Source: Pleurotus ostreatus/Saccharomyces cerevisiae fusant (taxonomy: Eukaryota > Opisthokonta). Taken from it: a stretch of DNA of 64,000 nt. Within the stretch, counting starts at the first letter, position 1, and every line of letters starts with the position of its first letter. The position numbers were made by a program, and so were the translations under genes. A model generated the notes under the pieces. It was not told the DNA's origin. It made no database searches and worked only from the letters and a program-made list of their open reading frames with translations. Shown here piece by piece: positions 1-56,536 of this stretch. The stretch is from contig JAMQCK010000049.1 of assembly GCA_024196135.1 (NCBI GenBank), forward strand, positions 1 through 64,000. Direction: 5' to 3'.

Positions 1-2148
1 GAAGACTCCGAATGGGTGATCGGTCTCCCCGACCCCGAGAATCAGACGGTCGCAGATCTTCTACTAGACGTGCGTCCGTCCGTCGCATTTCGCTCCATCG
101 TACTGACCTTCCTCTTGCCCAGAACTGCAAGAAGGTCATCTGGAGCATGCATCACACCATGCGTACCGATGCTCGCCGGCGCTTTACCTTTGGAATCACC
201 TTTGCAGACACCGAAGTTCGCCTCTGGCATTTCAACCGCGCCGTCATCGTCGCGAGCAATTCTTTTCATCTCAACACGGTAAGGCGCACGCTTTCGCCGC
301 TAGAGTGCTCTGTTGAGATTCTGTGTCTAGGACGCCAAGCTCCTCATCGACGTGTACTCTCGGTTCGCGTTCGCCACTCGCGAAGAGCTTGGCTACGATC
401 TCTCGATGGAGCGCCTCTCCTCCGATCCAGACCCTTCCCCCGATCGTACGAATAGCAAGCGCTGGAATAATCAGTACCGCATCGTGGTCTGCGGCGAGTC
501 CTACATCACCCTCAGGACCCTTGCCAATCAGGGTGCTGAGAATGGGTTCGGGAGCTGCACGCGGGTGTTCCGCGCGTACAAGGAGGGCGACAAGTTGATC
601 GACGCGGACAAACGGCAGTACTACGCCATCAAGGACAACTGGTTGGAGCGGGGTCGGCGCACCGAATACGAGATCTACAAAGACATCATGCAGCGCATCG
701 AGGCGCACGACTGGCAGGGGCGGTACAGCGCAGCGCCTGCCTCGCGTATGGACTACGCGGATTACAACAAGACTCAGAGTAAAAATGTGGATCCTTTGTA
801 CGGGCTTACTGCGGAAGAGCGTAAGCAGTTCTTCGTCAAGGTCATCGCGAGCGAGGAGGTCAAGGCTCACGGTGTTCCCGACGATACGCATGACGTGATC
901 GGCAGACATTGCAGCTTTCCCAAAGAGGGTCGAAAGTATCTTATGGTGTGTGACCGCGCGAAGCTGCACGTCAATCGACAATCGGTGCTGTCCGGCGTCT
1001 CTGGGAATGCGCACAAGACCGGGTATGGCGAGGACGACGAGGGTCGGTTCGATGGTGTGATTCCCGCTACACGGCATCACCGGACTGTCATGGAGGAAGC
1101 GATGAAGCTCCTCGATCTTCCTAATATCAAGACGATTTTTGAGACCGTGAAGGACGCCTCTTATGGTCAGCACCTTTTTTCTGAAGCAACGCACAGTGCT
1201 CTGACCGATTTTCAGCACTCTTCATCTTGCACTCCATCGGAATGCTGTTCAGGGATGTTAGCCCTGGCAATATCCTGCGCAGGAAGAAGGAAGTACCTGG
1301 CAGAGGCGTCCTTGCCGACCTTGAGTACGTCAAGTGTGTCACGGAGACGCAGTCTCATGGCACGCGAACTGTAGGTGATCTTTTGTCCGACAATGCTTTC
1401 TCTGACGTCTCGGCAGGGAACTGCAGACTTCTGTGCGGTGGAAGTTGCCAGCGGCCTTTTTCTGATTCCAGAAAAAACAGCTTCGCCGACCATTCTCCCC
1501 GACGACAACGACGGCGATCAGCCGTCTGCCCCTGTCCCTATCGCTGGCCCCGAATTACAACAGGATGACTGGAGGTTTCGTGACGTTCACGACCTCGAGT
1601 CAATCTTCTGGCTCATCCTCTGGCTGCTTCTTCGGTATGACACCAACGAACAGATACCTACCGAGTACGACCCCTTGCCGAAACGCAAAGCGTACAACAA
1701 GATCTTCCCCCATTACAGGTTCGAGAACAAACCTGAACGGGTAGCCGTCCTTACGATGGATCCGGCCCTCGACAAGGTGCTCGCCTTACTACCACCCTCG
1801 TGGACATCGGCCCTCAGGAACGCTCTTCGCCACTTTCGCACTGCACTCATGGAAGTTTACGAGGGGCCGAAGCGCCAGCCCCTGCCTCAGACCCTGTGGG
1901 CCTTGGTCTATGTAACGTGCGCGCGAGGCGAGCTCATAGAGGGCTCGTTCACCGGTTTATTCGAGGGGAATTCGCGCGAGACGCACAAGCGCAAGCGGGT
2001 GGCGCACAGGGAGGAAACTCAAGCTGTCGGCACTACAACTTCGGCTCATCGCGACATCGGCGTATCATCGGCTTCCGCCGGTACCGGTTCAGAGCGTCTT
2101 ACAGTGCCGCAGCCCAAGCGGAAGAAGGGCGTCGCTGCGACGAGCTAA
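1..2148 (+). CDS. FunK1-type fungal protein kinase A (5' end outside window)
   Basis: Fungal-specific FunK1 kinase (Pkinase_fungal family), cut at its 5' end by the window edge. Visible exons are 1-69, 123-278, 331-1165, 1216-1370 and 1417-2148; the four GT-AG introns are 46-53 bases and all keep phase. Recognition comes from family blocks shared with the two other copies here: RRFTFGITFADTEVRLWH, DVYSRFAFATREELG, RIVVCGESYIT, FETVKDASY, the catalytic-loop block LFRDVSPGNILRR (RD then N, as in HRD...N), and the distal FRDVHDLESIFWLILWLLLR. The C-terminus is basic (PKRKKG), a possible nuclear signal. Kinase activity and substrates are inferred only from family membership. Copy B follows head to tail about 480 bases downstream, which suggests tandem duplication. 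Stop is at 2146-2148. Confidence 0.88.
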
Positions 2149-2631
2149 TGGGCAGTCGTGGCGTTTCGCGCGACCCGATTCAACGCGCGTATCGGCTGAG
2201 GATCTGGTATCGCGCAGGGGGAGGTTGAAGAAGGGTTTGGGGGAAGGTCGAGCGTTGGCCCTTTGAGAGGGAATTGTTCATGATATGCAATCATGTATGC
2301 TGTCGTCGCGATGCTTAGCTTTGTTTGTGCGGATGCTATGCGATCTTCTACTAATACTTCGACTTGTGGGGTATGCGGATGCTTGACAAGGCCCGCCAGC
2401 CATTGTTGTACGGAATGGGGTTGGCAACATGTGATCTCCACATGGTGAGGATCAGTCGGAAATCGTGTGCGTGGCCCATCATTCGGACCTCGACCCACCT
2501 TGCCTTCGTCTTCCATCTCCAAACTTGAATTTCAGCTCGCCTTGCACGCGTTCACCATTCAACGTAGTAAAGGGCTAAACTCCGAGTATAAACACTGTCA
2601 CCCGCAAACAAAGAAAGCTCAGCCAGGACGA
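2149..2631. other. Intergenic spacer between FunK1 A and B
   Basis: 483 bases between two tandem kinase genes. I see no open frame with family resemblance. It must hold the 3' end of A and the promoter of B; GAGTATAAACACTG near 2583-2596 is a candidate TATA element about 45 bases before the start codon of B. Confidence 0.5.
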
Positions 2632-5410
2632 ATGGCAGTCACCCGCGAAACAGTCTGCGCGAAGATGGGCTCCGTGCCCGAGATCCCGCTGGCAGACTTC
2701 TTCTCCCACTTTATGCCCTCACAGAAGCTCGACGCAGTGCAGCTAGAAGCCGTGTTATACAAGCTCACGCAAGAGTGGCACGTTCACAAAGACTTTCCTC
2801 CGGAGACATGTGCAAGGAAGAAGTCTCGGGTGGCTATTTGGGCCACGGACAATGCTCCCCTCGGCTTCGATGATCAGCGCGGGACTTTCTGGACCGACTA
2901 CGTTCTTGCGCCGGCCGAGCTGTCGGGAAGCGCGAGAGTGGTCTACGACGACCTCGTCGCCATACACGGGCAGATAGTCCAATGCTGTCTAGAGGTGGAC
3001 GAAGGCAAGAGACTCAAGCAGATTACAACGCTGAAAAACAATGCTACACGTAGCCTGGATGGCAATGAACTGCCTTTGTCTGTGCCAGATGGCGCTCACC
3101 GGCTCTTGACCGACCTCGGCGAAGAGTTCGACTGGCACGACATCGTTATCGCCGAGGAATACACGCACCTTAGGGATTGCGCCCGCTCTGGGCTCTGGGA
3201 TGTCGACATGGCGGAGGACGTAGAGGAGCCGCGCCAGACAGCGACGCAACAAAAGCTAGAGGTGCGTTGATCATGCCGCTCACCTTTCCTCTGCTGAACT
3301 CCATTGCAGAATGCGAAGAAAGTCATCTGGAGCATGCACCAAATCATCTGTACGGATTCCCGACGTCGCTTCACTTTCGGAATAACCATCGCGAATACCG
3401 AGGTTCGCCTCTGGCATTACGGCCACGCCGTTGTCGTCGTCAGCAAGCCCTTCGACCTGAACGTGAACGCCAAGACCCTGATCGACGTCTACTCACGCTT
3501 CGCCTTCGCCGCGCACGAAGAGCTCGGCTTCGACCCCAAGATCGAACTCATCCGGTTCCCCACTCCTCCCCTCGGACCTAAGCCGCCACACCAGTATAGA
3601 ATCACTATCTGCGGATACCACTACATCACCGTCAACACCATCTCGAACCAATCTGCGGAAAACGGCATCGGACGCTGCACGAGGGTGTGGGCAGCGTATC
3701 GGGAAGGGGAGGACGAGAATCAGCTATACGCCATCAAGGACAGCTGGCTCGAGGCGGGTCGCGAGACGGAATACGATATATACCAGGATCTCATGCGGGC
3801 AATCGACGCGTACGACTGGGAGCGATGCTGCCATAAGCGCATCAAGAGGAAGAAGCTCAGACGCTACCAGGGCACGGAGCCTATCGACCCGCGATATAGC
3901 CTGTCGAAGGAGGAGCGCAAGGCGTTCTTCATCCCGATGTATGAGGGGGGGAAGGTCGAGATTGCGCCAGGTGTTCTCGACAATACGGAGAAGGTGATTG
4001 GGAGGGGCTACGTTTTTCCTCAGCCCAAGGACCGTATGATGTACTCGGTTCATGAGCACGCGGTGCTCGCGGCATCGCAAGGCTCGAATTCGGGTCTGAT
4101 CTTTGTTGCCCATCCTCCGGCTGACTTCGTCGACTATCCGAGATGGTACAAAGGGCGATTTCTCAAGGAGATCCACGCGCGAGAGCATCATCGCCTAGTG
4201 ATGGCAATAAGCGAGAAGTTGCTGGAACTCAGGGAGGCCAAATCCATATTCTCAACGATAAAGGACGCTTCATACGGTGCGTACTTTGGACATGCCATAC
4301 ATCGGGGTCTGACAAAGCTCGCAGCGCTCTTCATCCTTCATATGATGGGCTACGTGTACCGCGACGTCAGCGCCGGCAACATCCTACAATATAGGGGACA
4401 AGGCGTGCTCACAGACCTCGAGTACGTGGCGCCGGCGGCTACATTGCAGACGGACAATATGCGAGTGGTATGTACTGATATTATGGTCTCGCAATCATTA
4501 GCTTATCCTATTCCAGGGTACACCGAACTTCACCGCGGTAGAGGTCGTTGACGGCGAGTTTCTGCGCGAGCCTCCCATCAAGGGTGGCATAAGGTCGATC
4601 CTCTGTCGCACCAAGCACCTAGGGCACGCCCAAGCAACTCAAAGCAGCAATCTCTCATCTGAGGATGATGACAACTACTTGGAGGCCGACCTCGACACCC
4701 ACAGCGAATCTGGCCCTGTCTGGCGATTCCGTGAAGCGCACGACCTGGAATCCATCTACTGGCTGGTCCTTTTCATCCTCTTCGGACCCACCCGACTCGA
4801 CGGCCTCCCGCCCAACTACAAGCCTAGCGCGCAATTCGACCGCTTCAACTCGATGTTTCCCCATCATTTCTTCTCGACCTCCATTGAGCGCGTCGGCGTA
4901 CTCAAATTCGACCGTCATCTCGTTGCCGCCCTTCAGTTACTTCCGTCCGGATGGCGCAAAACAATGAGCGCATATCTGAGGGAGGTGCGCAACCTATTGC
5001 AGAAGATCTACGAAGCATGCCAGGGGAAGCCGCCGCCTTCGACAACCTGGTTTTTCGTCCATGAGATGTGCGCGGCGGGAGAGCGTATCGAGGGCGGCCT
5101 GGCTCCGATCGCCAAGGAGACACGTTCGGACGTCGTTGTCCGTGTTACGAGGCCATCGGGAAGGTCAGCGGAGACACAAGCGCCAAAATTCCCCGGCAGT
5201 CGGGCAAGAAAGCGCGCGCACGACGAGATTGACGGCGGCGTGGTAGAAGTGTGCAGGTCAGCGCGCTTTGTCAAGCCGCTTGCCGAGATAAACACGGCAG
5301 ATACTCTCGCAGGATCTACGACAAAAGGAGAATCTTCTGCAACGGCAAATAGCACTCAGCGCACCAAGGACGCTGAGGCGCAGTTGTACTGTATCACACT
5401 GGGTCTTTGA
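2632..5410 (+). CDS. FunK1-type fungal protein kinase B (complete)
   Basis: Complete FunK1 kinase, about 893 residues, from three exons: 2632-3261, 3310-4467 and 4517-5410. The ATG at 2632 was chosen because the first residues (KMGSVPEIPLADFFSHFMPSQ) align with the start of copy C (RLGAVPRLPLSDFIRHFLPEQ). Kinase landmarks: RRFTFGITIANTEVRLWH, STIKDASYG, catalytic loop YRDVSAGNIL near 4357-4386 and FREAHDLESIYWLVLFILFG. Copies A and C have two introns in the central region that B lacks (after the RLWH block and after DASYG), so B seems to have lost them. The last residues (LYCITLGL) and the stop are read from the terminal repeat of a MITE-like element that starts at 5389, so the natural C-terminus has been replaced. 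Function is inferred from the family only. Confidence 0.9.
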
Positions 5411-5450
5411 CTCTTTCCGTGAATCCGCGCAAACCCCCGGTGAACCCCCC
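5389..5450 (+). repeat. Left terminal inverted repeat of MITE-like element
   Basis: Inverted partner of 5732-5793. Its first bases are translated as the final codons of FunK1 B (…CITLGL, stop TGA at 5408-5410). Confidence 0.82.
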
Positions 5451-5731
5451 TTCAAGATGGTCGATTTTGCCCGGTAAAAAGGCCAGGTTATATTTTCGAT
5501 TTCCCTCTATCGAATGGTGCCAGTTTGAGTAGGCTTTCTGGGCGGAACGAGTGTAGCTGGCGGGAGAGAACGTTGACACGTGGCCTGATGCCATCAAGCT
5601 CAGTTCGGGGCTCTGTTCTCGCTTTTTCCTCATTCCTTTCCCATTTCCTGCCACAAAAGTGCCACCGTTCGAAAGCTAGACATCGAATACACCTTCTTAT
5701 CTTTTTTCCGAAAGAAAAAAGCTCGACAGAA

Positions 5732-5793
5732 GGGGGGTTCACGGGGAGTTTGCGCGGATTCACGGAAAGAGTCAAAGACCCAGTGTGATACAG
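5732..5793 (-). repeat. Right terminal inverted repeat of MITE-like element
   Basis: Inverted copy of 5389-5450, ending in GTGTGATACAG followed by the TA target-site copy at 5794-5795. Confidence 0.82.
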
Positions 5794-5795
5794 TA

Positions 5796-16811: not shown

Positions 16812-17345
16812 CTACGATGGATACCCCTTGGTGTAAACAGCCTTCTTCCGCTTTGGCTGTCGCTCCGTGAGACGCTCTGCATCGGTCCACTCAGACTCGA
16901 AGACGGTCCCCTCGACCTCCTCGTGCGTCCGCTTGCTCCCCGTGCCGCTTGCTATCTCGCTCATGCTGTTGGCTATGGTCTCTTCCCTCTCAACCGCTTT
17001 ACACGGCCACGGGCCGTGCTTGTCGAAGACTGCGTTCATCATCTCCTCGTACACCGGAGGCACAAACCTGCCCGAAATCCACTCGCCCATCGCACACGTC
17101 AGATAAGTCATCGTCCACAGCGTCGGAGGCAGAGGCTTGTTACGAGCCCTGTACACGTCCCACAACTCCTCGCGAAGTATCGCCACCGCGCCTGCCATGT
17201 ATTTGTTCCACTCCCGAGGTAGCGTGCTGAGCGCCTGCTCGAGGAAATTGGCATCGGCGAGGGCGCGGAACCTTGCGGGGGAGTTGTAGAAGGTATGCGG
17301 GAAGATCTTCGCGTAGAGATCATTGGAGTTCCTTTCAAGGTCGTA
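16812..17345 (-). pseudogene. 3' fragment of FunK1 kinase C, cut off by the Helitron
   Basis: Minus-strand open frame from 17345 down to the stop at 16812. It starts YDLERNSNDLYAKIFPHTF, which aligns with the distal part of copy A (EYDPLPKRKAYNKIFPHYRF), continues with PPTLWTMTYLTCAMGEWISG (A: LPQTLWALVYVTCARGELIEG) and ends in a basic tail. It has no start of its own. Its first codon, TAC (17345-17343), is in the same phase as the last host codon, GAA (25153-25151), of the 5' part across the Helitron. It is therefore the missing last 178 codons, stop included, of the kinase at 25151-27377. Confidence 0.93.
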
Positions 17346-17477
17346 TCTACAATACAATTGAAGGGTGGGTATGACGTATGCGGGGTACAAACCACGTGGT
17401 GGCTGTGTGCTCGCCTGTGTACTCTCCCTCTCAAGATACATCCTGGGCTAGTCTGGGATGAGTGGCAGTGGGCGTCG

Positions 17478-17703
17478 CACCCCAGCTTTCGTGGGAAGAA
17501 GTTTGACGGTTCCGCGACGTCGGCCATCTCCGAAAGCCTCGAAATGGCTGAAGACCTTCCGTTTAGCTTTGGGTCGGCCTCCCGACTTGCTCGTCATCGC
17601 GCTCACTTACACGCCGATTTTGGTCATGTTGGGCCTTGTTGGGCGCGTCGGAACCGCGAGATGTCGTTCACCTGTCAAGAAAGTTCCCACGAAAGCTGGG
17701 GTG
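17478..17703. repeat. 226-bp inverted-repeat element inside the Helitron
   Basis: CACCCCAGCTTTCGTGGGAA at 17478-17497 is perfectly inverted at 17684-17703. Weaker inversion continues inward (GACGGTTCCGCG against CGGAACCGCG). The 20-base perfect arms on a 226-bp body look like a nested MITE or a large foldback. No clear target-site duplication was found, so it may instead be a structural part of the Helitron 5' region. Confidence 0.6.
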
Positions 17704-18230
17704 TGAAGCCCCGCGTCACTCGTTCCAGACTCTATTGTCAGAACGACGGATACTCTTCTGAAAACTAGAGTCGGGTCCCGAGACTAATCCTGGGCCTCAT
17801 CCGTTTAGTAGCTTGACCTCACGAACGGCTCGCACTGAGCTTCGCAGGTGCTAGCTGTCACATCTTCCGAAGCACATGTCTGTCACACACGCAAGCCTAG
17901 ACCATCGGCGGTTGCGGAATGACGTCAGCATCCCATCTCGGCGCCCACGTCAACGGAAGTGCCTTGCCTGCTCTTGCCTCTTACCTTCACCATCCTCATC
18001 GTACCTGCACTTGGTGCTTTTCCATCTAATCTGTCACAGTACCTTGCAATGTAGCCCTTTTCTAATCCTCATATTAGCTGATGCCTCTCTGATCGTTGTG
18101 CCCGAGTTGCTTCTGGCAAGGTCGGTCGCCTGATGTCGAGTCTGACTTACTACAACAGCGACAACGCCGTAACAAGCGGTACTCAGCGACCGGCGTTACC
18201 GGCCCAGATGCCGAACAGACATACGAATCT

Positions 18231-18257
18231 TGGGTGCTCTGTCACGTGGAGCACCCA
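18231..18257. repeat. Perfect 9-bp hairpin in Helitron 5' region
   Basis: TGGGTGCTC (18231-18239) and GAGCACCCA (18249-18257) are perfectly complementary around a 9-base loop that contains CACGTG. It lies about 200 bases upstream of the Rep/helicase start and could be a regulatory or replication structure. Function not known. Confidence 0.5.
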
Positions 18258-18454
18258 GAATCTGCAGGTCTGAACAACGCGCGATGACATCAGCGTTGCT
18301 TCTGCTGCTATCCGGTTGTTCGGGCCGGACTGTTCGATCGACGCCCGGGAATATCCGTTGGTCAAGCTTGCTTTCCTCTTCCCTCTGTCCCAAGCGCGCG
18401 CACCTCGGTTGTCTTCACACTGTCGTTACTCCTATAACTTTATTCATTCTTTTA

Positions 18455-21400
18455 ATGACCATCACTCCTTTGCAAAACTCGCATAATGCCCTCGAAGCGG
18501 AGTCGTGGCGGGCCATCATGCGGCATCAACTTCGCCGCGCACAGCTGGGAACGGACTATGGTGCGTTCCCACACCTGATTATGCCTGCGTACATAGTGCT
18601 CAATCAGCCTCTTCACAGACTACCAGCCTCAGTACCCCTCATCGTTCCCGGAGAGTCAGAGACGGGATTTTGGGAGCAGGGATCTACATCGGGCTCCCCG
18701 CGTACCTTCCCTTCTTGCCCACAGTGCGTCGATCCCGCATCTGTTCATGAGACACTGTACTAAAGGCCTCTGCTAGATGCTCAGGTCCGAGCACCTTATG
18801 GCCAGACATGGATAACCAGACGATGCCTAGGTCAACGTGCTCGACGTGCGCGGGAACGTGCTCAACGTCTGGAGCAAGCTGAAGGAGAGGCCGCCGGACT
18901 ACTACCACAGCAGCATCATAGTGCCAGTCGTGCATGTACGCCATCACCAGACCAGACATTCCAATGGCATAATACCAGTCGTGATCACCCTCCTCATGCT
19001 GAAGATGGCGAGCTTGAAGAGTTTGGCTTTGAGCGTCTGCAAGATCGTGCGAGAGGCGGGCAGAGACCCTTCCTGTCCGAGCATCATCGCCAACACACTC
19101 CAGACGTCGAGGACAGAGCATCAGAACATGAAGAACAGCAGGGTGGGCAACAGCAGCCAGATGCTGATCCAAGTGCTGGCGACGAAGGTACGTCTGTTTG
19201 TAGCTGACCTTGAGAAGACGAACTCATATGGCTACCAGAAGACCCAGAAGATCACACCAGCGAGAGTGGCGATGAAGATGAGGAACAACGGCGTGTCAAC
19301 CAGGTCATGCGCGACCCTGCCTTCTGCAGCGCACGGGGCTCCTATGTTGAGCCTGCTGCACGCCATGATCTAGGGCGTATGGTGGTTCGATGTGGCTCCT
19401 GCAACGCGTTACATTGGCCATCGGAGAAGCTCAAGAAATCTCCGCAGCGTACTCCGCGCTTTGGGCTCTGCTGCAACAGCGGGAAGGTCAAGCTTCCTGT
19501 GCTGCGTGCACCTCCTCCACTTCTTCGCGGTCTCCTTGAAGGAGATGATGCAGTCTCGCGCAACTTCCGTGCTGATATCCGGCAGTACAACATGGCGTTG
19601 GCATTCACCTCTCTTGGTGTCAATGCAGACGAAGGCATCAATGCATCTGGACGAAGTGGATATGTATACCGCATTCATGGCGAGCTCTACCATCGTTCGG
19701 GTGCACTCGAAAATGCGGATGGAACAAGGCCGGTCTACTCGCAGCTGTACATATACGATCCTCGCATCGCGCTTGACCATCGCCGTTGCCGCAACGAGAA
19801 CCTGGACCCTCGACTTCTGGCTATGCTCGACATCATGCTTCGACAGGTCAACCCCTATGCGCACATCTACTTGCGGGCTTATGAGATTCTCAGCGAAGAA
19901 GGCTCAGCTCCTGACGCCTGGATCCGTTTGCGCGTTACGCCGGGCTGTGATAGACGACGGTACAATGAGCCGACGGCAGAAGAAGTCGCAATGATTCTGC
20001 CCGGAGACAGCTCTGCGAATGAGAAGCGCGACATCGTCATCTACAAGCGGCTTCCAGAGGGTCAGCGGCAGCTTTTCCGTATAAGCGAGTGCCACGCTGC
20101 ATATGCGCCGCTGCACTACGTTCTGCTCTTCCCGTATGGGGAGTACGGATGGTATCCCGAGCTTGAACTACAGAAGTCCAATGCTCAGCCACACCACCAA
20201 ACCCGCCGCTCCCGTCGCTCCCACCGCTCCAACAATGAGCGCAACCGCCTTACCCAGATGCGCTTCACATCATTTCGCTTGCAGGTTCGACCAAACGAGT
20301 ACAACACCATACTACGTGGCGGGCGCCTCTTTCAGCAGTATGTGGTAGACATGTGGGCCTCGACAGAGCAGAACCGCCTGGATTTCTTGCGCTACCATCA
20401 GGCACAACTCCGCGCTGACCTCTATAATGGCGTGGAGGATGCGCTGGCGGAGGGAGAAGTCAATCTGGACTCTATCGGCCAAAAGATTATCCTTCCATCC
20501 TCATTTACCGGCGGACCTCGGTACCTCCAGCAGCGCTACCAGGACGCGATGGCTGTTGCGCGGTACTATAAGAAGGTCGACATCTTCCTCACGATGACCG
20601 CGAACCCAAAGTGGCCTGAGGTGACGCGCGAGCTCCTACCAGGACAGACGGCGTTCGATCGACCCGACCTCATTGCGCGTGTCTTCAAGCTCAAGCGTGA
20701 TGCACTCATCGACTACATCTACAAGCAAGGCGTCTTTGGAGTGGCTGCTGCCTACGTCTACTCCACGGAATTTCAGAAGCGCGGCCTACCTCACGTCCAT
20801 CTCCTCATCATCCTACAAGAGCCATGGAAGCTCAACTCACCCGAGTCCATTGACGCCGTCATCCGCGCAGAGTGGCCTGACCCTGTCACTGAGCCGCTCC
20901 TCTTTGAGACTGTGTTCACGTGTATGGTTCACGGCCCATGCGGGGCTGCAAACCCACATGCTCCTTGCATGGAGAACGGTCGCTGCACGAAGTTCTACCC
21001 AAAGGACTTCCAGGAGGCCACGACGCTCACTGACGATGGGGTTCCTCTGTATCGCCGCCGTGACGATGGGCGGAAGTTCATCGTTAACGGTCATATTGTC
21101 GACAATCGCCACATCGTCCCATATCCTCCACGTCTTTGCGCTGAATTCAACTGCCATATCAACTGCGAATGCGTCTTCTCCTTCAAGTCGATGAAGTACC
21201 CCTTCAAGTATATTCACAAGGGAGGGGACCGCGCTACAATGGAGTACGAGATTGACGAGATCAAGTACTACGTAGACGGACGCTACATCGCGGCGGCAGA
21301 GGCGTGCTTTCGGTCATTCGACTTCCATCTCTACGACCAAAAGCCGGGCGTGACTCGCCTCCAGATTCACCTCCCAGGCCAGCATGTTGTCGTGTTCAAT

Positions 21401-23604
21401 CCTCGCGATGGCAGGGAAGCAGTGCTACGCCAGGTTCGCAGCCAGCGAACAACCCTGACGGCATTCTTCGAGGCGAATGCAAATCAAGGTCCTCTTGGGC
21501 AGGCTGCGCGCCAACTGACCTATCAAGAGTTCCCTCAGAAGTTTGTATGGAAGCAGGACAAGAAGAAGTGGACGCTGCGCAAGCAAGGCTTCTCAATTGG
21601 ACGGATGTACTTTGTGTCACCAACCGCCGGTCAGTTTCTCCTCATAGCCTTACTGAGTCATTCTTATGGATCTCAGGTGAACGGTTCTATCTCCGCAGCC
21701 TTTTGACCGTCGTCAAAGGTCCCACATCATTCGAGGACTTGCGAACCTTTTGCGGAATCACGTACGGTACCTTTCGTGATGCTTGCATTGCGCGTGGCCT
21801 GCTCGAGGACAATGGCGAGTGGCGCATGTGCCTTGCAGATGCGTGCCAGATGCAGACGGGTCACCGCTTACGGCGGCTCTTTGCGACCATGCTGTTGTTC
21901 TGTGGACCGTCTCAACCTGAGCGTCTATGGCAGGAATTTTGGCCCCATATCTGCGATGACCTTCCTTACCGCCTACGCTGCGCGGGCCTGGCTAACCCAA
22001 CCGAAGAGGATGTTCATGACTACGGCCTTCATCTACTCGAGCGCCTTCTGCATGAGTCAGGTCACTCCCTCGCTGACTTCCCTGCAATGCCCTCACCCGT
22101 GCGGCAGTGGTACAACATCACCGAGAATACGCTCATTGCCGAGCAGCTCAACTATTCAGCGAGCGCAGAACGCCAAGCCGCTATGTCAGCGATTGCGCGC
22201 ATGCAGAACAACACCGACCAGATGAACGCCCTACGAGAAATCCTTACCGCCATCCACAATCGCCAACCTGCTGCCTTCTTTGTTGATGGTCCCGGGGGAA
22301 CCGGGAAGACATTCCTCTACAACACCATAGCTCATGCACTGCGCGCAGACCAGCAGATTGTGCTCTGCACTGCTTCCTCTGGAATCGCATCCTTACTACT
22401 GCGCGGAGGCCGTACTGCCCACTCGACATTCAAGATCCCGATAACCAGCCTCTGCGAGACGTCTACCTGCTCTATCCGTGCCAACACCCTTCGGGGTGAT
22501 CTACTGCGTGCAACATCGGCAATCATCTGGGATGAGGCACTCATGCAGCATCGCTACACAATCGAGGCGCTTGACCGTACACTGCGGGATGTATGCAATT
22601 GCGATGAGGTCTTTGGTGGGAAGGTCATTATCTTCGGCGGCGACTTCCAACAAACGCTTCCTGTCATTCCGAAAGGGACGAAGGAAGACATTCTCGACGC
22701 ATCCCTTCCTCGCTCGCACCTTTGGCCTTCTATCCGCATTCTACAGCTTCGCGTTAACATGCGCCTCGAGCAGAGAGAGCAGGATTTTGCGCGTTGGTTG
22801 CTTGACATTGGTCACGGTGCCACTGTCGATCAGAATGGGATGGTCGCCCTCCCTGAGAGCATGCGGGTTACATCTCTGCATGATCTCATGAGCGCCATCT
22901 ACCCGGACATAATGGACGGCTTTGTTCCTGATCCCCGTTACTTCACCGACCGCATCATCCTCGCAGCCCGCAACAACGACGTTGGCGACCTCAATGACAT
23001 CCTGCTTGACCGCATGCCGGGCGAGCCATTCGTCTATCACAGCGCAGACAGTGTTGCTCGCGAGGAGGGTGCAGATGGTCATGAATACAACGACGTCCCC
23101 CCCGAGTACCTTCGATCGCTCGATACAAGCAGCTTACCGCCAGGAGAGCTGCGAATGAAGATCGGCTGTCCGCTCATCCTCCTTCGAAACTTGAGTCCAA
23201 GCGAAGGACTTTGCAATGGAACACGCGTCACTCTGCTACGCTCCTCTCACCGCGTCCTCGAAGTCCGCATCCTTGGTGGCGACCATGATGGAGAAGTTGC
23301 CCTAATCCCCCGCATCACCCTCATCCCGTCAGTCAGCCCGACTACTGGCTTCACCTTCCAGCTCCGCCGTCGCCAATTTCCTGTTCGCCTTGCTTTTGCC
23401 ATTAGCATCAACAAGGCGCAAGGTCAATCTGTTCGACACGTTGGTATTGACCTCCGCACCCCCGTCTTCACGCACGGGCAGTTGTATGTTGCTCTCTCTC
23501 GAGCCACCTCCGCCCACCGTGTCAAGGTGCTGCTCCCGCACGACGAGCCCGAGTGTCGGACGAAGAATATCGTCTATTCGGAAATATTCCAGGATATTCC
23601 ATGA
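18455..23604 (+). CDS. Helitron Rep/helicase transposase
   Basis: Rolling-circle transposase of about 1,646 residues. Exons: 18455-18560, 18619-18723, 18777-19187, 19239-21629, 21677-23604 (phases all consistent). The N-terminal exons are my reconstruction: a basic, coiled-coil-like stretch (RARRARERAQRLEQAEGE) and an acidic stretch. Then come the zinc-finger-like VVRCGSCNALHW...FGLCCNSGKV, the Rep nuclease with the HUH motif in GLPHVHLL (near 20790) and the paired catalytic tyrosines in KYPFKYIHK (near 21195-21215). After the 47-base intron at 21630-21676 is the Pif1-type helicase: Walker A DGPGGTGKTFLY (about 22285-22320), IIWDEALM, IFGGDFQQTLPV and the late motif KAQGQSVRHVGIDL. No stop or frameshift was seen, so the enzyme looks intact and the element possibly autonomous. 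Confidence 0.95.
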
Positions 23605-23769
23605 ATTCTTCCATGCTTCTGGACTCACTCCGCGGCTGCGCATCATGGACTCGAATATTCTACACCACTTCTCCCCTACTATATAACCATCTAAGTCTTT
23701 CCTCCCTGCCAGCACCTTACAATTCACCTCTAAGCTACTCTTCATCCTTCACTGTGTTCACTTCTCTTC

Positions 23770-24956
23770 ATGTCGTCTACTACGTCGTCTGCCTGCATTG
23801 TTGGCATGTGCGGCCTCGAGAATCCCCGTCCTGCTCCGGGGGGAGGTTGGGGAATTCTCTTCGATGCTGTATTCCAGATCACGCCGGGTACCGTCATCGT
23901 CGGCGTCTTCCGCTACTTCAACAAGGAGAACCGTGCATTTTCTGATGCCGGTCGTTACTTTGTACATGCGAATGTGAGTCTCTATTGTGATCTTCCTATT
24001 TCTTTTGCTGATGCCATGTCTCATGCGCAGTTCGCGGCGATGAACCAGCACGTCAACTTTGAGGAGCTCAAATCTGACGTGGTTGAAGAGCCTGCTGATG
24101 TCTCCTTCATTGGAGACATTGAATTTGTGAGTTTCTCTCCATCGTTGGCACTTGATGTGAGTTCTCATTTCTTCAGCTTCGTCCCGTCCAGGTCGAGGAT
24201 GGAGAGTGGGCTCACAGGCCAATAATCCACGCCTCCGGTCGTGTCGCAAAGTCCAACCGTGACACATCGGCGTTCGAGGTGACTGTGACGCAATACACCT
24301 CATTCCTCAAGAATCGTCGTGGCAACTCTACAATCACCATCCAGGCCATCATCCCCGACTCACCGCGCTACCCAAATGGTCGTAAGCCCATCCCCCACAA
24401 CAACACGTTCATCCACTTTCATGGCCATCTCGGACGCGTCTACAAGAACCTTGATGGCTTTACAACGGCGGTGTCTATTGACGTTGAAGATATTGCCTTC
24501 CTTGGCCAGGCATCGACTTCAATCGAAGCCAATCCCGGTGTGTATCAATGGCCTCCAGGGTGATCCCTCCGACTCACGTTGCTATCTACAGTGAGCTCTC
24601 CATCGCCTGCTTCCGCGAAGAAGCGCAAGTTCAAGACGGCGTTCACCGACACGGACGACGTCAGTGAGGGCGGATCCGCGAAGAAGCGCGCCCCTTCTAC
24701 GCCACTGAACACGGTTCAGGGAGGGCACGGTCACAACAACGCTGTAAACACCAGTCCTCTCACTCCTACACCTGTTAGTCGCTCGGGAACGCCAGCTCCG
24801 CTTTCTCTTTCAACGCCCTGTGCTCCATGTTCGTCCAAGTCCCCTTGCCTAGCAGCACTGTTACCTATGCTGACACATTCTGCTACAGCGGAGTCTGCTG
24901 ACGCTAGCCGCCCTCTTACCCGCCGCCGCGCTGCTGCTGAGCGTGCGCACGAGTAG
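23770..24956 (+). CDS. Second Helitron gene: beta-rich protein with basic C-terminus, possible ssDNA-binding
   Basis: About 336 residues from exons 23770-23973, 24031-24126, 24192-24537 and 24592-24956, all phase-consistent. It starts 165 bases after the transposase stop and lies wholly within the Helitron. The N-terminal two thirds look beta-rich (GWGILFDAVFQITPGTVIVG, FEVTVTQYTSF, STITIQAIIPDS, TAVSIDVEDIAFLGQ); the C-terminus is Ser/Thr/Pro-rich with KKRKFK and KKRAP, likely nuclear signals. I cannot name a Pfam family. Plant Helitrons often carry RPA70-like single-strand DNA-binding proteins, so an OB-fold helper is a reasonable inference, but it could also be a captured host gene of another kind. 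A further 66-base intron near 24825-24890 is possible; the frame is open either way. Confidence 0.8.
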
Positions 24957-25150
24957 ATTCACAAAGATTCGTGTACATACCCTAAGGTCTAATCTTACTT
25001 GCTATCTTTACGGACCTTATATTGTCGTACTTGATACTTCGAACTCTAACCGCGTACTATTCTCTTGCTATTATAACCCGATGCGAGCGTGACAATCAAC
25101 ATTGATCGTGTTTCTTGAGTTCATTCGTAGCACCACGGGCTATCTGCTAG
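24957..25150 (+). other. Helitron 3' end
   Basis: 194 bases from the stop of the second gene to the CTAG terminus at 25147-25150. The last 30 bases, read on the minus strand, form the artificial C-terminus and stop of the broken FunK1 C. Confidence 0.8.
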
Positions 25151-27377
25151 TTCTAAAGAAACCGGGCCATAGGTGTCATGCCGGAGCAGCACCCAGAGGA
25201 TTAGCCAGAAGACCGACTCGAGATCGTGCACGTCACGAAATTTCCAGGCGAGACGACTGTCAGGGGATCGAGGCGGAGGGGTTGAAGTTGCCTTCGGTTC
25301 ATCCGGATCGCGAAATGCCCGTTTAGCGTTATTGCGCAGAGGCTGCCCAACAAGGAACTCGCCGAGGACGACCTCTAGAGCGCAAAAATCCGGCGTGCCC
25401 TTTCGCATCGTTAGTAGGGTTGTGAAGAACGGGGCAGGAGAAGGACATGCAGTTCGCTTGGTGCACAAAGCCGTGTCGTCGACGCTTCTGACGGACTCCA
25501 AGTCTGCGAGGACGCCACGGCCGTTGGGACGACGGAGGATGTTGCCAGGACTCACATCCCCGTAAACCAGGCCAACGGAGTGTAATAGGAAGAGCGCTGG
25601 AATATGCGTCAGTCTTTCTACGAGAAAGAATGGCAGGCGAAATTCAAGTAAAACTCACCGTAGGAAGCGTCCTTCACGGTCGCGAACACCGACTTGATCT
25701 CGGGATTATCGAGAAGTCCTTGCCCCTCTTCCATGACGATGCGATGATGCTGCAAAGCCGGTATATCACGCAGGAAGCGACCCTCGTTCTGTACTGGCAA
25801 GCCTGTCTCCATTCCGTGCTTATACATGACGACGCCGCAGAGCACCGGGTCTTCGCCGACATGCATTATCGCGCGCTCGCAGACAGAGTAGACCTTGCGA
25901 TTCCCGACAGGAAAGTTGTAGCCCCTGCCAATCACCTCATGCGTATCGTCGACGCCGCCGCCGACATTGACCTTCTCGCCAGAGACCACCTTCACGAAGA
26001 ACTTCTTGCGCTCCTCGACACTGAGCCCATACATTGGGTCCGCGGACTTGGTCGAGTCCGAGTTCGCCTCGAGCTGCAGAAGGTCCATGATGCTTGTTGG
26101 CGCTGCATCGTGTAGACCCTGCCAGTCATGCTCTTCGAAGCGCCTCATGATGTCTTCGTAGATCTTGTACTCGGTACGCTTGTAGGATTCCAGCCAGCAG
26201 TCCTTGATCACGTAGAATGTTCGTTGGTCCACATCTATCGACGCGTCGCTCTCCTTGTACGCTCGACACACGCGCGTGCATTTGCCGAGCCCGCGTTCGG
26301 CGGCATGATTTGCGAGAGCATCGACGGTAATGTATGTCTCGCCGCAGACAATGATGCGGTACTGGTCCAACGGCGGTTGGTCAGGGTACAAGGACGGGTA
26401 CAAGGACGGGTAGTTGCGGTGCAGCTCGATGTTGGGGTCGAACCCGAGTTCTTCAAGCGTCGCGAAGGCAAATCGGGAGTAGACGTCGACCAAGACTTGC
26501 GCGTCCTGTAGATAAATATCGTCAATGAAAGGGGGACCGCACAAGAAGAGCGGGACAGGACAACTTACGGTGTTGAGGTCGAATGGCTCGCTGACGACGG
26601 CGACCGCACGGTTGAGATGCCATAAGCGGACTTCGGTATCCGCAAAAGTAATGCCGAACGTAAAGCGCCGACGATGGTCTGTGCGTAGGATCTGGTGCAT
26701 GCTCCAAAGGACCTTCTTCGACTTCTGAGGGTGTATCAGCAAGTGAAAGGCGGCGCGGAAGTGAAGGGTGGGCTCACGGCGATGCTTTTGTCGATGGACA
26801 TTGGACTCGCTCGCCAAGTCGAGGCCTGGCGCCCACGATTCCTCATGTGATCATGCTCCTCAACGACGACGACGTTGTGCCAGTCGAATATGCCGTCTTG
26901 CTCAGCAATCAGTTGGTGCACGGCGCCAGGCAGCAGCCACTGCGCCTCTTCGCTTTCAGTCTTGAGCCTCTCACAGCTCTGAAGCGTCAACGTCTGCTTG
27001 AGCTCATCGTTCACCTCTGAGCAGCACTGCACGATCTTCCCATGAAAGTCGACTAGATCACCGTAGGTGCCTTTCTCGGCGTCGAGGCAGTGAGGCGATG
27101 ACCGCTCACAGTCGTTTTGTCTCGAGAGTCCACCATCGCCCGCCTCGGCAGATGCACGCCTCGATCCCCGTTTCTGCGAGCCACGCTGCTTCATGTTGGC
27201 ATCCTCCTCTTTGATATGCTCGCTAGTCCTCGATGTCTGCTTAAGCATCGTCATCACTTGCTCAGACTGCTTTTCGGTCAGCTTCTGTTCAGGCAGAAAG
27301 TGGCGGATGAAGTCGCTAAGAGGCAGACGAGGAACAGCGCCTAAGCGCTCGCAAAAAGCATCGCAGTCGCTTTCCAT
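25121..27377 (-). pseudogene. FunK1-type kinase C, 5' part, truncated by the Helitron
   Basis: FunK1 kinase read from ATG 27377: exons 27377-26778, 26724-26569, 26505-25659, 25596-25451 and 25399-25151, then the Helitron. Translation runs nine codons into Helitron DNA (LADSPWCYE) and stops at 25121-25123, so the distal FunK1 region is lost. Family blocks: RRFTFGITFADTEVRLWH, DVYSRFAFATLEELG, FATVKDASYG, DVSPGNILRRPNG, FRDVHDLESVFWLILWVLLR. Two oddities: the loop reads VYGDVSPGN, with Gly where the other copies have the HRD-type Arg, and the intron at 25450-25400 starts with GC rather than GT (GCATGT...AG; 51 bases, so reading through it also keeps frame). The 3' remainder is at 16812-17345. 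Excising the Helitron gives a virtual protein of about 843 residues. Called a pseudogene because of the break; the truncated form may still be expressed. Confidence 0.9.
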
Positions 27378-29452: not shown

Positions 29453-30833
29453 ATGGCCCGCATCGCGACCGTCTTCCTCGCTACAGGTGTTCAAGGTAAG
29501 GCTCCTCGATCCATCTCCGTCTACTGCCGCCGTACATTCTCCCACCATGCTGATTCTCTTTGGCCTCATAGGTACCTCCGTCGTGCAAGCGCTGCTCAAG
29601 GACGGCACCTTCAAGCCTCGCGCTGTGACACGCAATGCTAACTCCGACGCCGCGCGTTCCCTCGCTGCACTCGGCGCCGATGTCGTCGAGGCCGCATTCG
29701 ACGACAAGGAGGCTCTTAAGCGCGCTGTATTTGGTGCCGAATGCGTTTTCCTGGTCAGTCCGCCGTCGCGCAATTATATCACCTATCGCCGAATTGCTTT
29801 TTCCGCGCGAACATGACCTGTCTTTACGCATTGCTGACATGGTCCCTTACCTATAGGCTACCATTCCTACTCCAGGGAATCTGCCTGAGCTCGCGCAGGG
29901 GAGAAACGTCATTGAAGCCTGCAAAGAAGCCGGCGTGAAGTTTGTTGTCCTGAGGTACGACCTTTGTGCGGAAAACGACATCACTCTCGCTCAACCCAAC
30001 GTGCAGCTCCCTTCCGAGCCTGAAAGAGCTATCGCACGGAAAGTACACTCATGCGTTGCACTTCGACCGTGCGTGATCAGCTTTTCAACGGCTCGAGCAT
30101 ACTGATGACCATATAATAGACAAGGCGGCTCTTCAGAAGGACCTCGAAAACTCCGGGATCCCCTGCGCATCTGTCTGCCCCGGCTCTTTCCTCGAGAACA
30201 TCTCGCGCGGGTAAGTCCACATTGCCGCCCATCGCACCGCCCTACTACTAGCTTACCCTCTCAGCATGCTCGGCTGCCCCTTCGAAGAGACGGAGACGCA
30301 CTACATCCTCCACACCCGTGAGGTCGCCGGCCTCCCTGTCGTGCAGACGTGGACCGGTCGCGACATGGGGCGCGCCGTGGTAGCGCTGTTTACGCAGTAC
30401 GATACGCGCGGGCCCGAGATTCTGAAGCAGACCTTCGTGCTAGGCTGCCAGCGCGCTACGACGGAGGAGACGGCGGCTGAACTGGCTAAAGGTACGGTGG
30501 TTGCGACGTGCAGGAAATGCGAGTCGAAGCGCTCACCGTCATTCTTCAGGCCTAGGCAAGCCCGTCGAGGTGCAGCGCCTCGGAGCGTTTGGAATCCCGC
30601 CTATTGATGAGATGGTACGTATCTTCGTCTTTGTCCCACAAGTGATCTTGGGAACTCAACTTGACCAACTTCGACAGTGGGCTGCTTCGGCCGAGTTCGA
30701 CTGGTACCCTGGCGTCGATGTCCCGGACAAGCGCCTGGCTGCGCTGGGCGTCGAGGTAGGTACCATCGAAGGTTTTGGACGCGAGGTGCTGAAGGGAGCG
30801 CGTGTGGAAGCGAGAACCGCGGCGTTTCATTGA
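29453..30833 (+). CDS. NmrA-like NAD(P)-binding protein, copy 1
   Basis: NmrA-family Rossmann-fold protein of about 307 residues, the kind that acts as an oxidoreductase or a redox-sensing regulator; substrate not known. Exons: 29453-29495, 29572-29753, 29857-29954, 30007-30068, 30120-30210, 30265-30491, 30550-30614, 30678-30833, all phase-consistent. The dinucleotide-binding start is VFLATGVQGTSVVQALL, with an Arg that fits NADP binding in PRAVTRNANS. Further family blocks: DVVEAAFDDKEALKRA, LKELSHGKYTHALHFD, CASVCPGSFLEN, PVVQTWTGRDMGRAVVALF. Three more copies are in this window (31538-32862, 47944-49227, 55044-56536). This copy and copy 4 keep an intron inside the GVQ|GTS motif that copies 2 and 3 lack. 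Confidence 0.9.
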
Positions 30834-31537: not shown

Positions 31538-32862
31538 CTACACCTTAAAGAGCTCGCCAGTCACGCCTTTGGGGGCGCTCTTGAGCACAGTGCGAGCGAA
31601 CTCCGCGATGGTCCCGATCTGGACGCCGAGCGCCTCGAGACGCTTGTCGGGGACGTCAACGCCGGGGAACCAGTCGAATTCCACCGTGGCGGCAAACTAT
31701 CGCGGCGTCAGCATCAGTGGAGCGCGACAGAGATACAGTGGCGCGCGAGAGATGCAGACCCCGCCCGCAGACGTACCACGTCGTCCACGGCGGGGATCCC
31801 AAGCTTGCCGCGGCGCCTGACTTCGACGGGTTTGCCTAGGCCTGCGAGGGGTGCGTTAGAGGGCGACTATGCAAAAATGGTGGACAGCATCATTTAGTCT
31901 ATCTATACGCACCCTCCGCCAGCTCCGCCGCGACCTCCTCCGTCGTCGCGCGCTGGCACCCGAGCACGAACGTCTGGTGGTCGATCTCCGCCGCGCGCGT
32001 CGTACTGCGTGAATAAGGCCGTCACCGCCAGCCCCATGTCGCGGCCGATCCACGTCTGGATGAGGCGGCAGCCCTCGGGCTCGTAGGTGTTGTAGATGTA
32101 CGCCGTCTCGGTCTCCTCGAAGGGGCAGCCGAGCAGGCTGTGTGCGCAAGGGGAGTCCTGGTAAGCGGAGGGGGAAAATAGGCGGTCCATGGCCACACAC
32201 GCACCCACGGGTCAGGTTCTCGAGGAAGCCTCCGGGGCAGATGGAAGCGCAGGCGATGCCGGAGCTTTCGAGGTACTTCTGTATCAAGGCCTTGTCTGCA
32301 ATGGGCGGGATCAGCATGCTAGGACACTCAGGGAGGCATGGGGCGTACTTTCGAAATGCATAGCGCTGGAGTACTTGCCGCCCGACAGCTCCTTTACACT
32401 CGGGAGGGTGCTATCGAGCAGAGTGATTACTACGCAAGGCGCACACGCGATCTGAGAGGGAGTTGCGCACCTAAACGCGATGAACTTGACCCCGGCTTCC
32501 TTGCTAGCGTCTATGATGTTCATACCCTGGGTGAGCTCGGGCACGCCTCCTTGGGTGGGCTTGGTGACCTACGAAGCGACGAGCCAATGATCAGCAAAAC
32601 TATTGACATGATAACCTCGAGCGACTGCAATACGCACGAGGAATACGCATTCCGCGCCAGTCACGGCGCGCTTGATGGCCTCCTTGTCGTCGTAGGTAGC
32701 CTCGACGACTTCCGCGCCCAGAGCGGCGAGAGCACGCGCGGCGTCCGAGTTCGCATTGCGCGTCACCGCGCGGGGGGTGAAGGTGCCGTCTTTGATTAGG
32801 GCTTGGACGGCGGAGGTGCCCTGGACACCGGTGGCCAGGAAGACGGTGGCGATGCGGGACAT
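31538..32862 (-). pseudogene. NmrA-like copy 2, frameshifted
   Basis: Same family and exon plan as the copy at 47944: exons 32862-32638, 32568-32471, 32410-32349, 32295-32205, 32137-31913, 31841-31777, 31696-31538. Exon sizes are identical to copy 3 (225, 98, 62, 91, 65, 159) except the fifth, which is 225 instead of 227. The two missing bases fall in the FTQYDARG segment (CAGTACGACGCGCGCGG), and the frame afterwards reads Arg/Gly-rich nonsense to a stop in the next intron. The later exons are otherwise preserved (GLGKPVEVRR, DWFPGVDVPDKRLEALGV), so the lesion looks recent. It could be a sequencing error in a GC-rich run. Confidence 0.85.
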
Positions 32863-32895
32863 GCTTGCTGGTGCCGAGTGGGGGTGAAGGTCCAT

Positions 32896-47884: not shown

Positions 47885-47943
47885 TCGTTCCCATTCTTTC
47901 TTCATCACACTTCTACACTCCTCCTCACTCAACATCAGCCACA

Positions 47944-49227
47944 ATGTCCCGCATCGCCACCGTCTTCCTCGCCACTGGGGTCCAGGGCACCTCCGCCGTG
48001 CAAGCTTTGATCAAGGATGGCACCTTCAAGCCTCGCGCGGTGACGCGCAATGCGAACTCGGATGCGGCGCGCGCCCTTGCTGCGTTGGGTGCTGAAGTGG
48101 TTGAAGCGACGTACGACGACAAGGAGGCTATCAAGCGCGCTGTTACTGGCGCGGAATGCGTGTTTCTTGTGCGTATCCAACTCCATCTGAACTATCGTTT
48201 GTGTAGTTTGACTGATAACTTACTGTGCGCTACATAGGTCACTATGCCCAGCCAGGGAGGCGTGCCCGAGGTTACACAGGGTACCAACATCATAGACGCC
48301 AGCAAGGAAGCTGGTGTCAAGTTCATTGCTTTCAGGTGAGCACCAGTGGATACTTTGCGTGCGCTGCCATGCATACTCACGCGAATCAACAGCACACTGC
48401 CAAGTCTGAAGGAGATCTCGGGTGGCAAGTACCCCCACGCTCTGCATTTCGACAGTACGTCTTTTGCCTCCCTGTGATTTGGAAAGATACTAGTACTGAC
48501 GCTTCACCTCGCAGATAAGGCCTTGATCCAGAAGTACCTCGAGAACTCTGGTATCGCCTGCGCCTCCATCTGCCCCGGAGGCTTCCTCGAGAACCTCACT
48601 CGCGGGTAAGTTTGCATCACCAACCTCGCTGTACCTCTCCTTTGCTGATCCCCTTACCCCTCACAGCCTCCTCGGCTGCCCCTTCGAAGAGCAGGCAGAC
48701 AAGTACATCTTCAACACCCGCGAGCCCGAGGGCTGCAAGCTCATCCAAACCTGGACCGGCCGCGACATGGGGCTCGCGGTGACCGCGCTGTTCACGCAGT
48801 ACGAGACACGCGCAGCGGAGATCGACCACCAGACGTTTGTGCTGGGGTGCCAGCGCGCGACGACGGAGGAGACGGCGGCGGAGTTGGCGAAGGGTGAGTG
48901 GGGGTTGGATGAGCTGTGGGTGGTTGGGCTGTTGCTGATAGGGAACTTGTAGGCTTGGGCAAACCCGTCGAAGTGAAGCGTCTTGGGAAGATGGGGATCC
49001 CGCCTGTAGACGACATGGTACGCGGATGTCGTGTCCGATGTACTGTTCAATTGCTGACCTTGCGATAGTGGGCCGCGACGGCGGAGCTCGACTGGTTCCC
49101 TGGCGTCGACGTTCCCGACAAGCGTCTGGAAGCGCTCGGTGTCAAGGTCGGAACGATCGAGGAGTTCGCCAGGACCGTGCTCAAGAATGCGCCCAAGGGG
49201 GTTACTGGTAAGGCATTCGGAAAGTAG
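47944..49227 (+). CDS. NmrA-like NAD(P)-binding protein, copy 3 (intact)
   Basis: 308 residues, NmrA-type Rossmann fold. Exons 47944-48168, 48238-48335, 48393-48454, 48515-48605, 48667-48893, 48953-49017, 49069-49227, all phase-consistent. Binding motif VFLATGVQGTSAVQALI with PRAVTRNANSDAARALAALG; later VTMPSQGGVPEVTQGTNIID, CASICPGGFLENLTRG, LIQTWTGRDMGLAVTALF, FVLGCQRATTEETAAELAKG. It lacks the first intron of copies 1 and 4. Closest relative in the window is the frameshifted copy 2: same exon sizes, same promoter block. Convergent with the sirtuin gene at 49422. Likely a cytosolic NADP-dependent oxidoreductase or redox sensor; substrate not known. Confidence 0.92.
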
Positions 49228-55043: not shown

Positions 55044-56536
55044 ATGTCCCGCATTGCCACTGTCTTCCTCGGAACGAGTCTGCAAGGTAGGTTACCAAAT
55101 CCTCACCCTTCTCACCTTCCATACACTTCCTCTCTCCCCCTTTATTTTCCCTCTTATTCCCTCTCACCTCCCCTAACAAATCTTACCACTACACTCCTAC
55201 CACCCCACAACCGCACTAACCACCCCCCTCCCCAGGCTCCTCCGCCATCGACGCCCTCCTCGCCGACGGTACCTTCACCCCGCGCGCCGTCACGCGGAAC
55301 GCCAGCTCCGCCGCCGCGAAAGCGCTCGCGGCGCGCGGCGTGCAGATCGCGGAGGCGAGGCTTGATGATAGGGAGGCGGTTATGAGGGCGGTGGAGGGGG
55401 CGGAGGTGGTGTTTTTGGTGAGTGGGGGAAGGTTCTCTGCGCAAAGGGAAGGTTCTCTTCGCAAAGGGAAGGTTCTCTTCGCAAAGGCGGTGTTTTTCAG
55501 GCATCGGGCAGTGTTGCTGAGGCGTGAGGATCGCAAGTGCGATGATAACTGACGGCAAGCACATCAGGTCACCATGCCCTTCAGCGACGTGCCGGAGGTG
55601 ACGCAGGGAGTCAATGTCATCGACACTAGCAAGGAGGCTGGAGTTAAGTTTATTGTGCTCAGGTGCGTATCAGTAATTCTACTACCTACTTTAGAACCCT
55701 GCGCTAAGCCAGGACCTCTCCAGCTCCCTGCCCAGCATCAGCGAGTTCTCGCACGGCAAGTACACGCATGCGGTCGAGTTCGATGGTGAGTTCTTCTGTT
55801 GCTGGTACAGGGAGCCTGGGCGGGTATCGGGAGATTGAGCTGACGTACACGACCTGCTAGACAAAGACACCATCCGGCAGTACCTAGAGAAGTCGGGGAT
55901 CCAGTGCGCCACGATATACCCGGGAAACTTTATGGAGAACTTTCCTCGTGGGTGCGTTGGATACGTAGCCCATTTCTTCTTCCCCTCCTCTCCCTCCCTT
56001 CCCCCTCTATCCTTCCCTCAAATTTGATTATATATCTAACGCCACCACAGCGTCCTCGACTGCCCCTTCGAAAAGACCCCCACCGGCTACATCCTCAACA
56101 CCCGCGAACAACAAGGCACGCGCTGCGTTCAAGTTTGGATTAGACACGACATGGGTCAAGCCGTAGTAGCGCTGTTCAAGAACTACCAGACGCGCCTCGC
56201 GGAATTTGATAAGCAGGCGTTTGTACTCGGGAGTGTACGCGCGACAATTGAGGAGGTGGCGGCGGAGTTTGCGAAGGGGCTGGGGAAGCCGATCGAGCTC
56301 AGAAGGCATGGGAATTTTGGAGATGTGGCGGCGGATGATATCGTGAGCAATTGTGCTTCGAGGAAAGCAGGAGGTTCTGACGCGTTGACATGCAGTACGA
56401 CGCGCTCAAGGAGTTCGACATATTTCCGGGGATCGAGATCCCGGACCCGCGCCTCACGGCCCTCGGTGTGAAGGCAGGGACCCTCGAGGAGTTCGCTCGA
56501 ACGGTCCTTCGTGAGCATGTAGAAAAGTATCAGTAG
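55044..56536 (+). CDS. NmrA-like NAD(P)-binding protein, copy 4 (diverged)
   Basis: About 301 residues. Exons 55044-55086, 55236-55417, 55568-55662, 55724-55785, 55861-55951, 56051-56342, 56396-56536, all phase-consistent. The start is SRIATVFLGTSLQGSSAIDALL: Thr-Ser instead of Thr-Gly in the nucleotide-binding loop, so cofactor binding may be altered. Further blocks: PRAVTRNASSAAAKALAARG, VTMPFSDVPEVTQGVNVIDT, FSHGKYTHAVEFD, CVQVWIRHDMGQAVVALF. It keeps the first intron (as copy 1) but has lost the intron before GLGKP that the three others have. It lies right after NTA1. It is the most divergent of the four, so older than the copy 2/copy 3 duplication. Function inferred only from family. Confidence 0.88.
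55429..55490 (+). repeat. Three ~20-bp repeats in an intron of NmrA copy 4
   Basis: Units of GGTTCTCTTCGCAAAGGGAA repeated, the first with GCGC for TCGC, ending in GGCGG. Confidence 0.75.

Follow-up and report, generated by a model that had tools for sequence, protein, structure and literature searches.

Helitrons with a predicted tandem OB-fold gene and a fixed 3' motif, including a copy within a FunK1 kinase gene of a Schizophyllum commune-like genome

The HELPO1 Helitrons of Pleurotus ostreatus are elements of about 7.1 kb that encode a RepHel protein of about 1,400 amino acids, with introns in HELPO1.1 and HELPO1.2, and relatives of the Pleurotus capB gene occur with a RepHel in the same orientation in Schizophyllum commune Loenen and others (PMC4289320; each paper is cited here and below for the sections we draw on). 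Plant Helitrons can carry an RPA homologue belonging to a clade confined to monocots and dicots, and RPA homologues are also mentioned for zebrafish and sea anemone Helitrons and for the Helentrons of Drosophila (PMC4683698). Here we describe a 7,805-bp Helitron at positions 17346-25150 of a 64,000-nucleotide stretch (C713:1-64000, hereafter the window) of a 40.05 Mb genome assembled in 1,277 contigs, which divides one minus-strand FunK1 kinase gene in two; the coordinates and bases agree with those claimed in a preliminary description of the locus. We consider it highly probable that a FunK1 gene in a Schizophyllum commune-like genome received this Helitron between its codons 683 and 684, in antisense orientation and with no duplication of the target. 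With evenly divided confidence, and resting on a structure prediction, we further propose that certain basidiomycete Helitrons encode a tandem oligonucleotide/oligosaccharide-binding (OB) fold protein of their own for single-stranded DNA, which shows no sequence relation to RPA that could be detected and is a working part rather than a captured passenger, and that a fixed motif replaces the 3' hairpin. Events like the kinase insertion are known, and this one adds a further case of gene disruption, clear but ordinary.

Ends of the family and the 3' motif

A genome search for further copies with the same termini, proposed in the preliminary description, yielded five other elements. Bases 1-71 of the window element (1-70 at C85) recur at 96-97% on contigs C933, C569, C85 and C1234, where all four 5' ends begin at base 1 and the upstream flanks are unlike. 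These elements measure 616, 2,064, 608 and 617 bp, respectively, the one at C569:50427-52490 being a short copy enlarged by a nested insert of about 1.44 kb. A second coding element of 7,413 bp (C849:9114-16526) has the same end motifs. All six elements start with TCTACAATACAA and finish with CGGGCTATCNNCTAG, and so have the canonical 5' TC and 3' CTRR of Helitrons in the form TC...CTAG. The 3' motif followed by T (CGGGCTATCNNCTAGT) was found six times on the forward strand and never on the reverse strand of the 40.05 Mb, with no occurrence of a reversed-pattern control, and each of the six sites is paired with a same-strand TCTACAATACAA at element lengths of 608-7,805 bp. When two mismatches were allowed the 3' pattern showed no excess over the control (133 versus 165), and the 10-base 5' motif alone was mildly enriched (51 versus 25). 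A subterminal palindrome, CCACGTGG (17392-17399), is kept in all six elements and is perhaps a protein-binding site.

The ends of the family are exact to within one base. Because T is both the first base of the element and the host base next after it, the boundary T is ambiguous, a one-base shift leaving the same empty site. The earlier claim of exact ends therefore stands for termini that recur in six elements, with this single-base reservation, and the claimed 3' end is correct in its CTAG, but the last shared block is CGGGCTATCNNCTAG rather than CTGCTAG. A host A before and a T after the element, also claimed, hold in the window; across the family the following base is T in six of six, but the preceding base is A in five, the C1234 element being preceded by T, which counts against our reading. 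None of the six has a target duplication in its 10-base flanks, and the insertions are of the A/T type expected of Helitrons, not the T-preceded type (TTTT/T or C, or TT) compiled for Helitron2 and Helentron in PMC5148889.

The 3' end is where the family departs from a canonical Helitron, and it is a point against classing it as one. A HelSearch-type stem rule for a subterminal hairpin, taken from PMC4289320, was passed by none of the six copies; an artificial control passes it, as do shuffled sequences at 4-7%. Neither the last 40 nt (z from -0.93 to 1.42) nor the last 80 nt (z from -0.11 to 1.13) of any of the six fold better than shuffles, perfect stems at the 3' ends reach at most 5 bp, and under a relaxed stem rule the window copy alone showed a stem, a weak one, at a shuffle rate of 0.44. 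The hairpin of Helraiser is described as signalling termination without being absolutely required, deletion of the palindrome leaving about 35% of colony-forming activity (8.8% when corrected for copy number) with more read-through (PMC4778049); a hairpin-free end is therefore compatible with activity. With the hairpin lacking by this rule, we thus regard the family as a variant, with the same way of working as canonical Helitrons, and infer that CGGGCTATC stands in for the hairpin as the mark of the 3' end. The 3' hairpin rule by which HELPO was found (PMC4289320) would miss this family and, if our proposal is right, so would hairpin-based Helitron finders.

RepHel and the accessory gene

The coding content is that of a canonical RepHel, with a Rep part matching PF14214 (E=1.2e-60) and a helicase part matching PF05970 (PIF1; E=4e-72) and PF21530 (E=1.4e-14). 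Its translation includes the HUH-like GLPHVH and YPFKY. Compared with the C849 RepHel, 1,093 of 1,416 residues are identical, and the ratio of non-synonymous to synonymous change (dN/dS) is 0.071 at a dS of 2.33, which is near saturation. PF14214 was found at 23 places in the genome, three of which (C849, C713 and C452) exceed 200 bits, and these three RepHel loci group together (100/99) in a midpoint-rooted tree whose 29 rows comprise them and 26 of 120 listed hits (532 in all). Exchange with plants, suggested by plant RepHel matches at 47-50% identity, is not supported, as in this tree the six plant rows group by themselves (100/100), separate from the named fungal rows. The other 20 Helitron_like_N loci (C299, C1128, C563, C1151 and others) score at most 134.4 bits, and 16 of them each lie in one open frame 2,182-2,916 amino acids long; judged from sequence, the 20 appear to form another set of large Helitron-like proteins, very different from the first.

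An accessory gene follows RepHel in the window element and in its C849 sister, and probably in the third element (C452), and its frame is constrained by dN/dS despite near-saturated silent sites. Helitrons do capture genes, and genes in this position have been called captured, with function unknown (PMC4289320), so that the accessory gene might be a host-derived passenger like the Pleurotus cap genes. We consider this unlikely in view of the constraint kept across such a divergence, the shared position after RepHel, and a genome-wide search in which no match at E<=0.001 lay outside Helitrons; moreover, according to PMC4289320 itself, in the sections used here, the cap genes have no copies outside Helitrons either. 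The predicted accessory fold is nearest to bacterial single-stranded DNA-binding proteins (SSBs) with two OB folds. Six of the seven full-length VIA structural matches are tandem-OB proteins that bind single-stranded DNA, and the viral structural matches include phage SSBs and LEF-3. That the predicted OB folds instead serve RNA or protein binding, and not the coating of single-stranded DNA, is rather doubtful given these matches.

Several results weigh against a tandem-OB working part. With dS at 1.5-2.3, near saturation, the dN/dS ratios are rough. The accessory protein had no sequence match in the PDB at E<=10, sequence homology to a tandem-OB SSB was not detected, and none of ten accessory-family members matched Pfam at E<=10. 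The first structure model was poor, with a predicted local distance difference test score (pLDDT) of 40.7, and a second run with 10 sequences gave one usable model, the best of five, the others scoring 38.0-51.5. The structural matches share 10-14% identity at Foldseek TM-scores of 0.42-0.54. Finally, the accessory match at C452 was not significant genome-wide (E=0.11), and weak rows appeared at C147 (E=0.038) and C1234 (E=0.16) as well.

A search of the literature, with most subscription journals outside its scope, found, among papers on Helitrons and OB folds, none about such a protein by title and opening of the abstract, and for Helitrons with RPA and single-stranded DNA-binding in fungi it returned a plant study only. 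If the accessory protein binds single strands, it would be a strand-coating protein of fungal Helitrons, different in kind from the RPA homologues that Helitrons of plants and some animals carry, and part of published gene capture would be transposon machinery. If our proposal is true, genes described as captured, Pleurotus capB among them, may have to be reinterpreted.

The split FunK1 gene

With the element removed, the host bases at the join (slash) are GTA/TTC, and the script-joined flanks read in frame on the minus strand as GPVSLE/YDLERN, with the EYD that the preliminary description had placed there. From 27377 down to 16812, without the element and with three inferred GT-AG introns, the frame is stop-free for 860 residues and the join falls after residue 683. 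An intact FunK1 copy in the window, copy A (1399-2136; 43% identity), was said to read likewise, and it does align in a single piece to residues 80-339 of a 345-residue joined query, crossing the join at 168/169. A search with the joined protein returned 18 proteins, seven of which were aligned (P0011-P0016 and P0018); the join itself is ungapped in all seven, and P0011, a Schizophyllum commune homologue with 80% identity, reads VSLECDLERN across it. Five of the seven lack 17 residues upstream of the join, so a fourth host intron is possible there, which would leave the join unaffected. The nearest proteins among the database matches are from Schizophyllum commune, and the genome most likely belongs to a strain of this species. 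Pkinase_fungal (PF17667), the domain of FunK1 fungal kinases, was found on the host fragment (E=2.6e-16) and on P0011 (E=1.7e-32).

The window also contains FunK1 copies A and B, and the two kinase parts might come from different FunK1 genes joined by rearrangement or tandem duplication. This is very unlikely given the in-frame join, at which no residue is lost or gained relative to P0011, and breakpoints that are element ends recurring elsewhere; the other genome matches to the joined kinase reach at most 43% over long stretches and 56% over short ones. No copy as close as P0011 was found in the genome, and P0011 therefore comes from another one. The evidence for an empty site is at the protein level, from a homologue that may be either allelic or a close paralogue, which tempers the case for insertion. 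An assembly artefact that placed an unrelated Helitron into the kinase gene, in an assembly of 1,277 contigs judged without reads, is extremely unlikely, as both junctions lie at element ends fixed independently by other copies and the element is well inside a 128-kb contig. The earlier view of a Helitron within a single FunK1 gene is accordingly upheld by the Rep-helicase content, the recurring ends, and the copy A and ungapped P0011 alignments that run through the join. In the literature searched, no paper linking a Helitron to FunK1 was found.

In the interrupted gene, the kinase frame enters the element for nine codons (LADSPWCYE) and then meets a stop. The kinase product would thus be shortened by its final 177 residues, which are C-terminal to the Pfam match; in P0011 this match ends at 647 and the join follows 660, 13 residues beyond. 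Loss of kinase function through the insertion, stated outright in the preliminary description, is likely on this sequence evidence.

Feature coordinates are given in Table 1. The window holds three FunK1 genes (331-5410 and 16812-27377), and the Schizophyllum commune proteins EV121DRAFT_281620/281621 and EV122DRAFT_223919/223920 have neighbouring numbers, which suggests FunK1 clusters in other strains. A 67-nt inverted repeat, 97% complementary with arms 275 nt apart (5387-5453 and 5729-5795), is located at the end of copy B. A 338-bp miniature inverted-repeat transposable element (MITE), a later insertion, is nested in the Helitron at 103 bp from the Helitron's 5' end; the target duplication of the MITE is an exact 9 bp in six of seven copies examined in the genome and 8 bp in one. 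Elsewhere in the window are diverged repeats, 64-89% alike (29571-30493, 47986-48895 and 55235-56279, with 31907-32883 inverted relative to 47923-48899); a frame at 47695-48237 matches NmrA, and the repeats are perhaps a dispersed NmrA-like gene family.

Table 1 Features of the interrupted FunK1 gene and its Helitron (window coordinates)
Feature	Position	Strand	Details
FunK1 host gene, 3' part	16812..17345	-	177 codons and stop; frame and homologue alignment
Helitron, 7,805 bp	17346..25150	+	antisense to kinase; ends common to five other elements; PF14214 and PIF1
5' terminus TCTACAATACAA	17346..17357	+	six of six elements
Subterminal block ACAAACCACGTGG	17387..17399	+	six of six elements; from element base 42 (37 in C849)
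MITE left 9-bp target duplication ATCCTGGGC	17440..17448	.	
MITE, short terminal inverted repeats TAGTCT...AGACTA	17449..17786	.	six other copies
MITE right 9-bp target duplication	17787..17795	.	
RepHel, Rep part	19259..21629	+	extent by C849 alignment; N-terminal exons not fixed; PF14214 at 20267-20809
RepHel, inferred intron, 47 nt	21630..21676	+	GT-AG; frames joined where the C849 frame continues
RepHel, PIF1 helicase part and stop	21677..23604	+	PF05970, PF21530; 77% identity to C849
Accessory gene, 341 amino acids	23770..24956	+	inferred introns 23974-24030, 24127-24176, 24538-24591; predicted tandem OB-fold
3' terminus CGGGCTATCNNCTAG	25136..25150	+	without hairpin by the tested rule; pattern plus T in 40 Mb: six forward sites, none reverse or for the control
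FunK1 host gene, 5' part	25151..27377	-	inferred introns 26725-26777, 26506-26568, 25597-25658; PF17667 and frame

Proposed mechanism and comparison with described Helitrons

In the mechanism we propose, Rep would nick and transfer one strand and the PIF1 helicase would unwind; the accessory protein, with its predicted tandem OB folds, would coat the single strand set free, and the end would be marked by the fixed 3' motif CGGGCTATCNNCTAG, a task that the hairpin has in other Helitrons. Four short elements without a RepHel, of 608-617 bp apart from one enlarged to 2,064 bp, would probably be moved by this machinery too, and the head-to-tail junction of a circular intermediate would read CTAG/TCTACAATAC.

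The family resembles HELPO1 in its T[C/G] 5' and CTRR 3' ends, its insertion between A and T, and the presence after RepHel of a further gene, whose function is unknown in HELPO1, but HELPO elements are said to have a subterminal hairpin where none was found in these six elements, and its downstream gene is called captured, whereas the one here is a predicted tandem-OB gene (PMC4289320). The accessory gene may correspond to capB, judging from the published description. Helraiser and Helibat share the TC...CTAG ends, the A/T target and RepHel; in contrast, Helraiser has a 19-bp palindrome 11 nt from its 3' end, in place of which we found a fixed motif and no palindrome (PMC4778049). FoHeli of Fusarium are likewise fungal Helitrons, and are described with asymmetric terminal inverted repeats, ends of TCAG...ATTTT or TGCCT...CTCCTGT, and, in the sections used, no RPA-like gene found (PMC5148889). 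Like plant Helitrons, the family has an extra gene of single-strand-binding type, here a predicted one; unlike the RPA-like gene of plants, it encodes a protein without a Pfam match whose predicted fold is nearest to the two-OB bacterial SSBs (PMC4683698).
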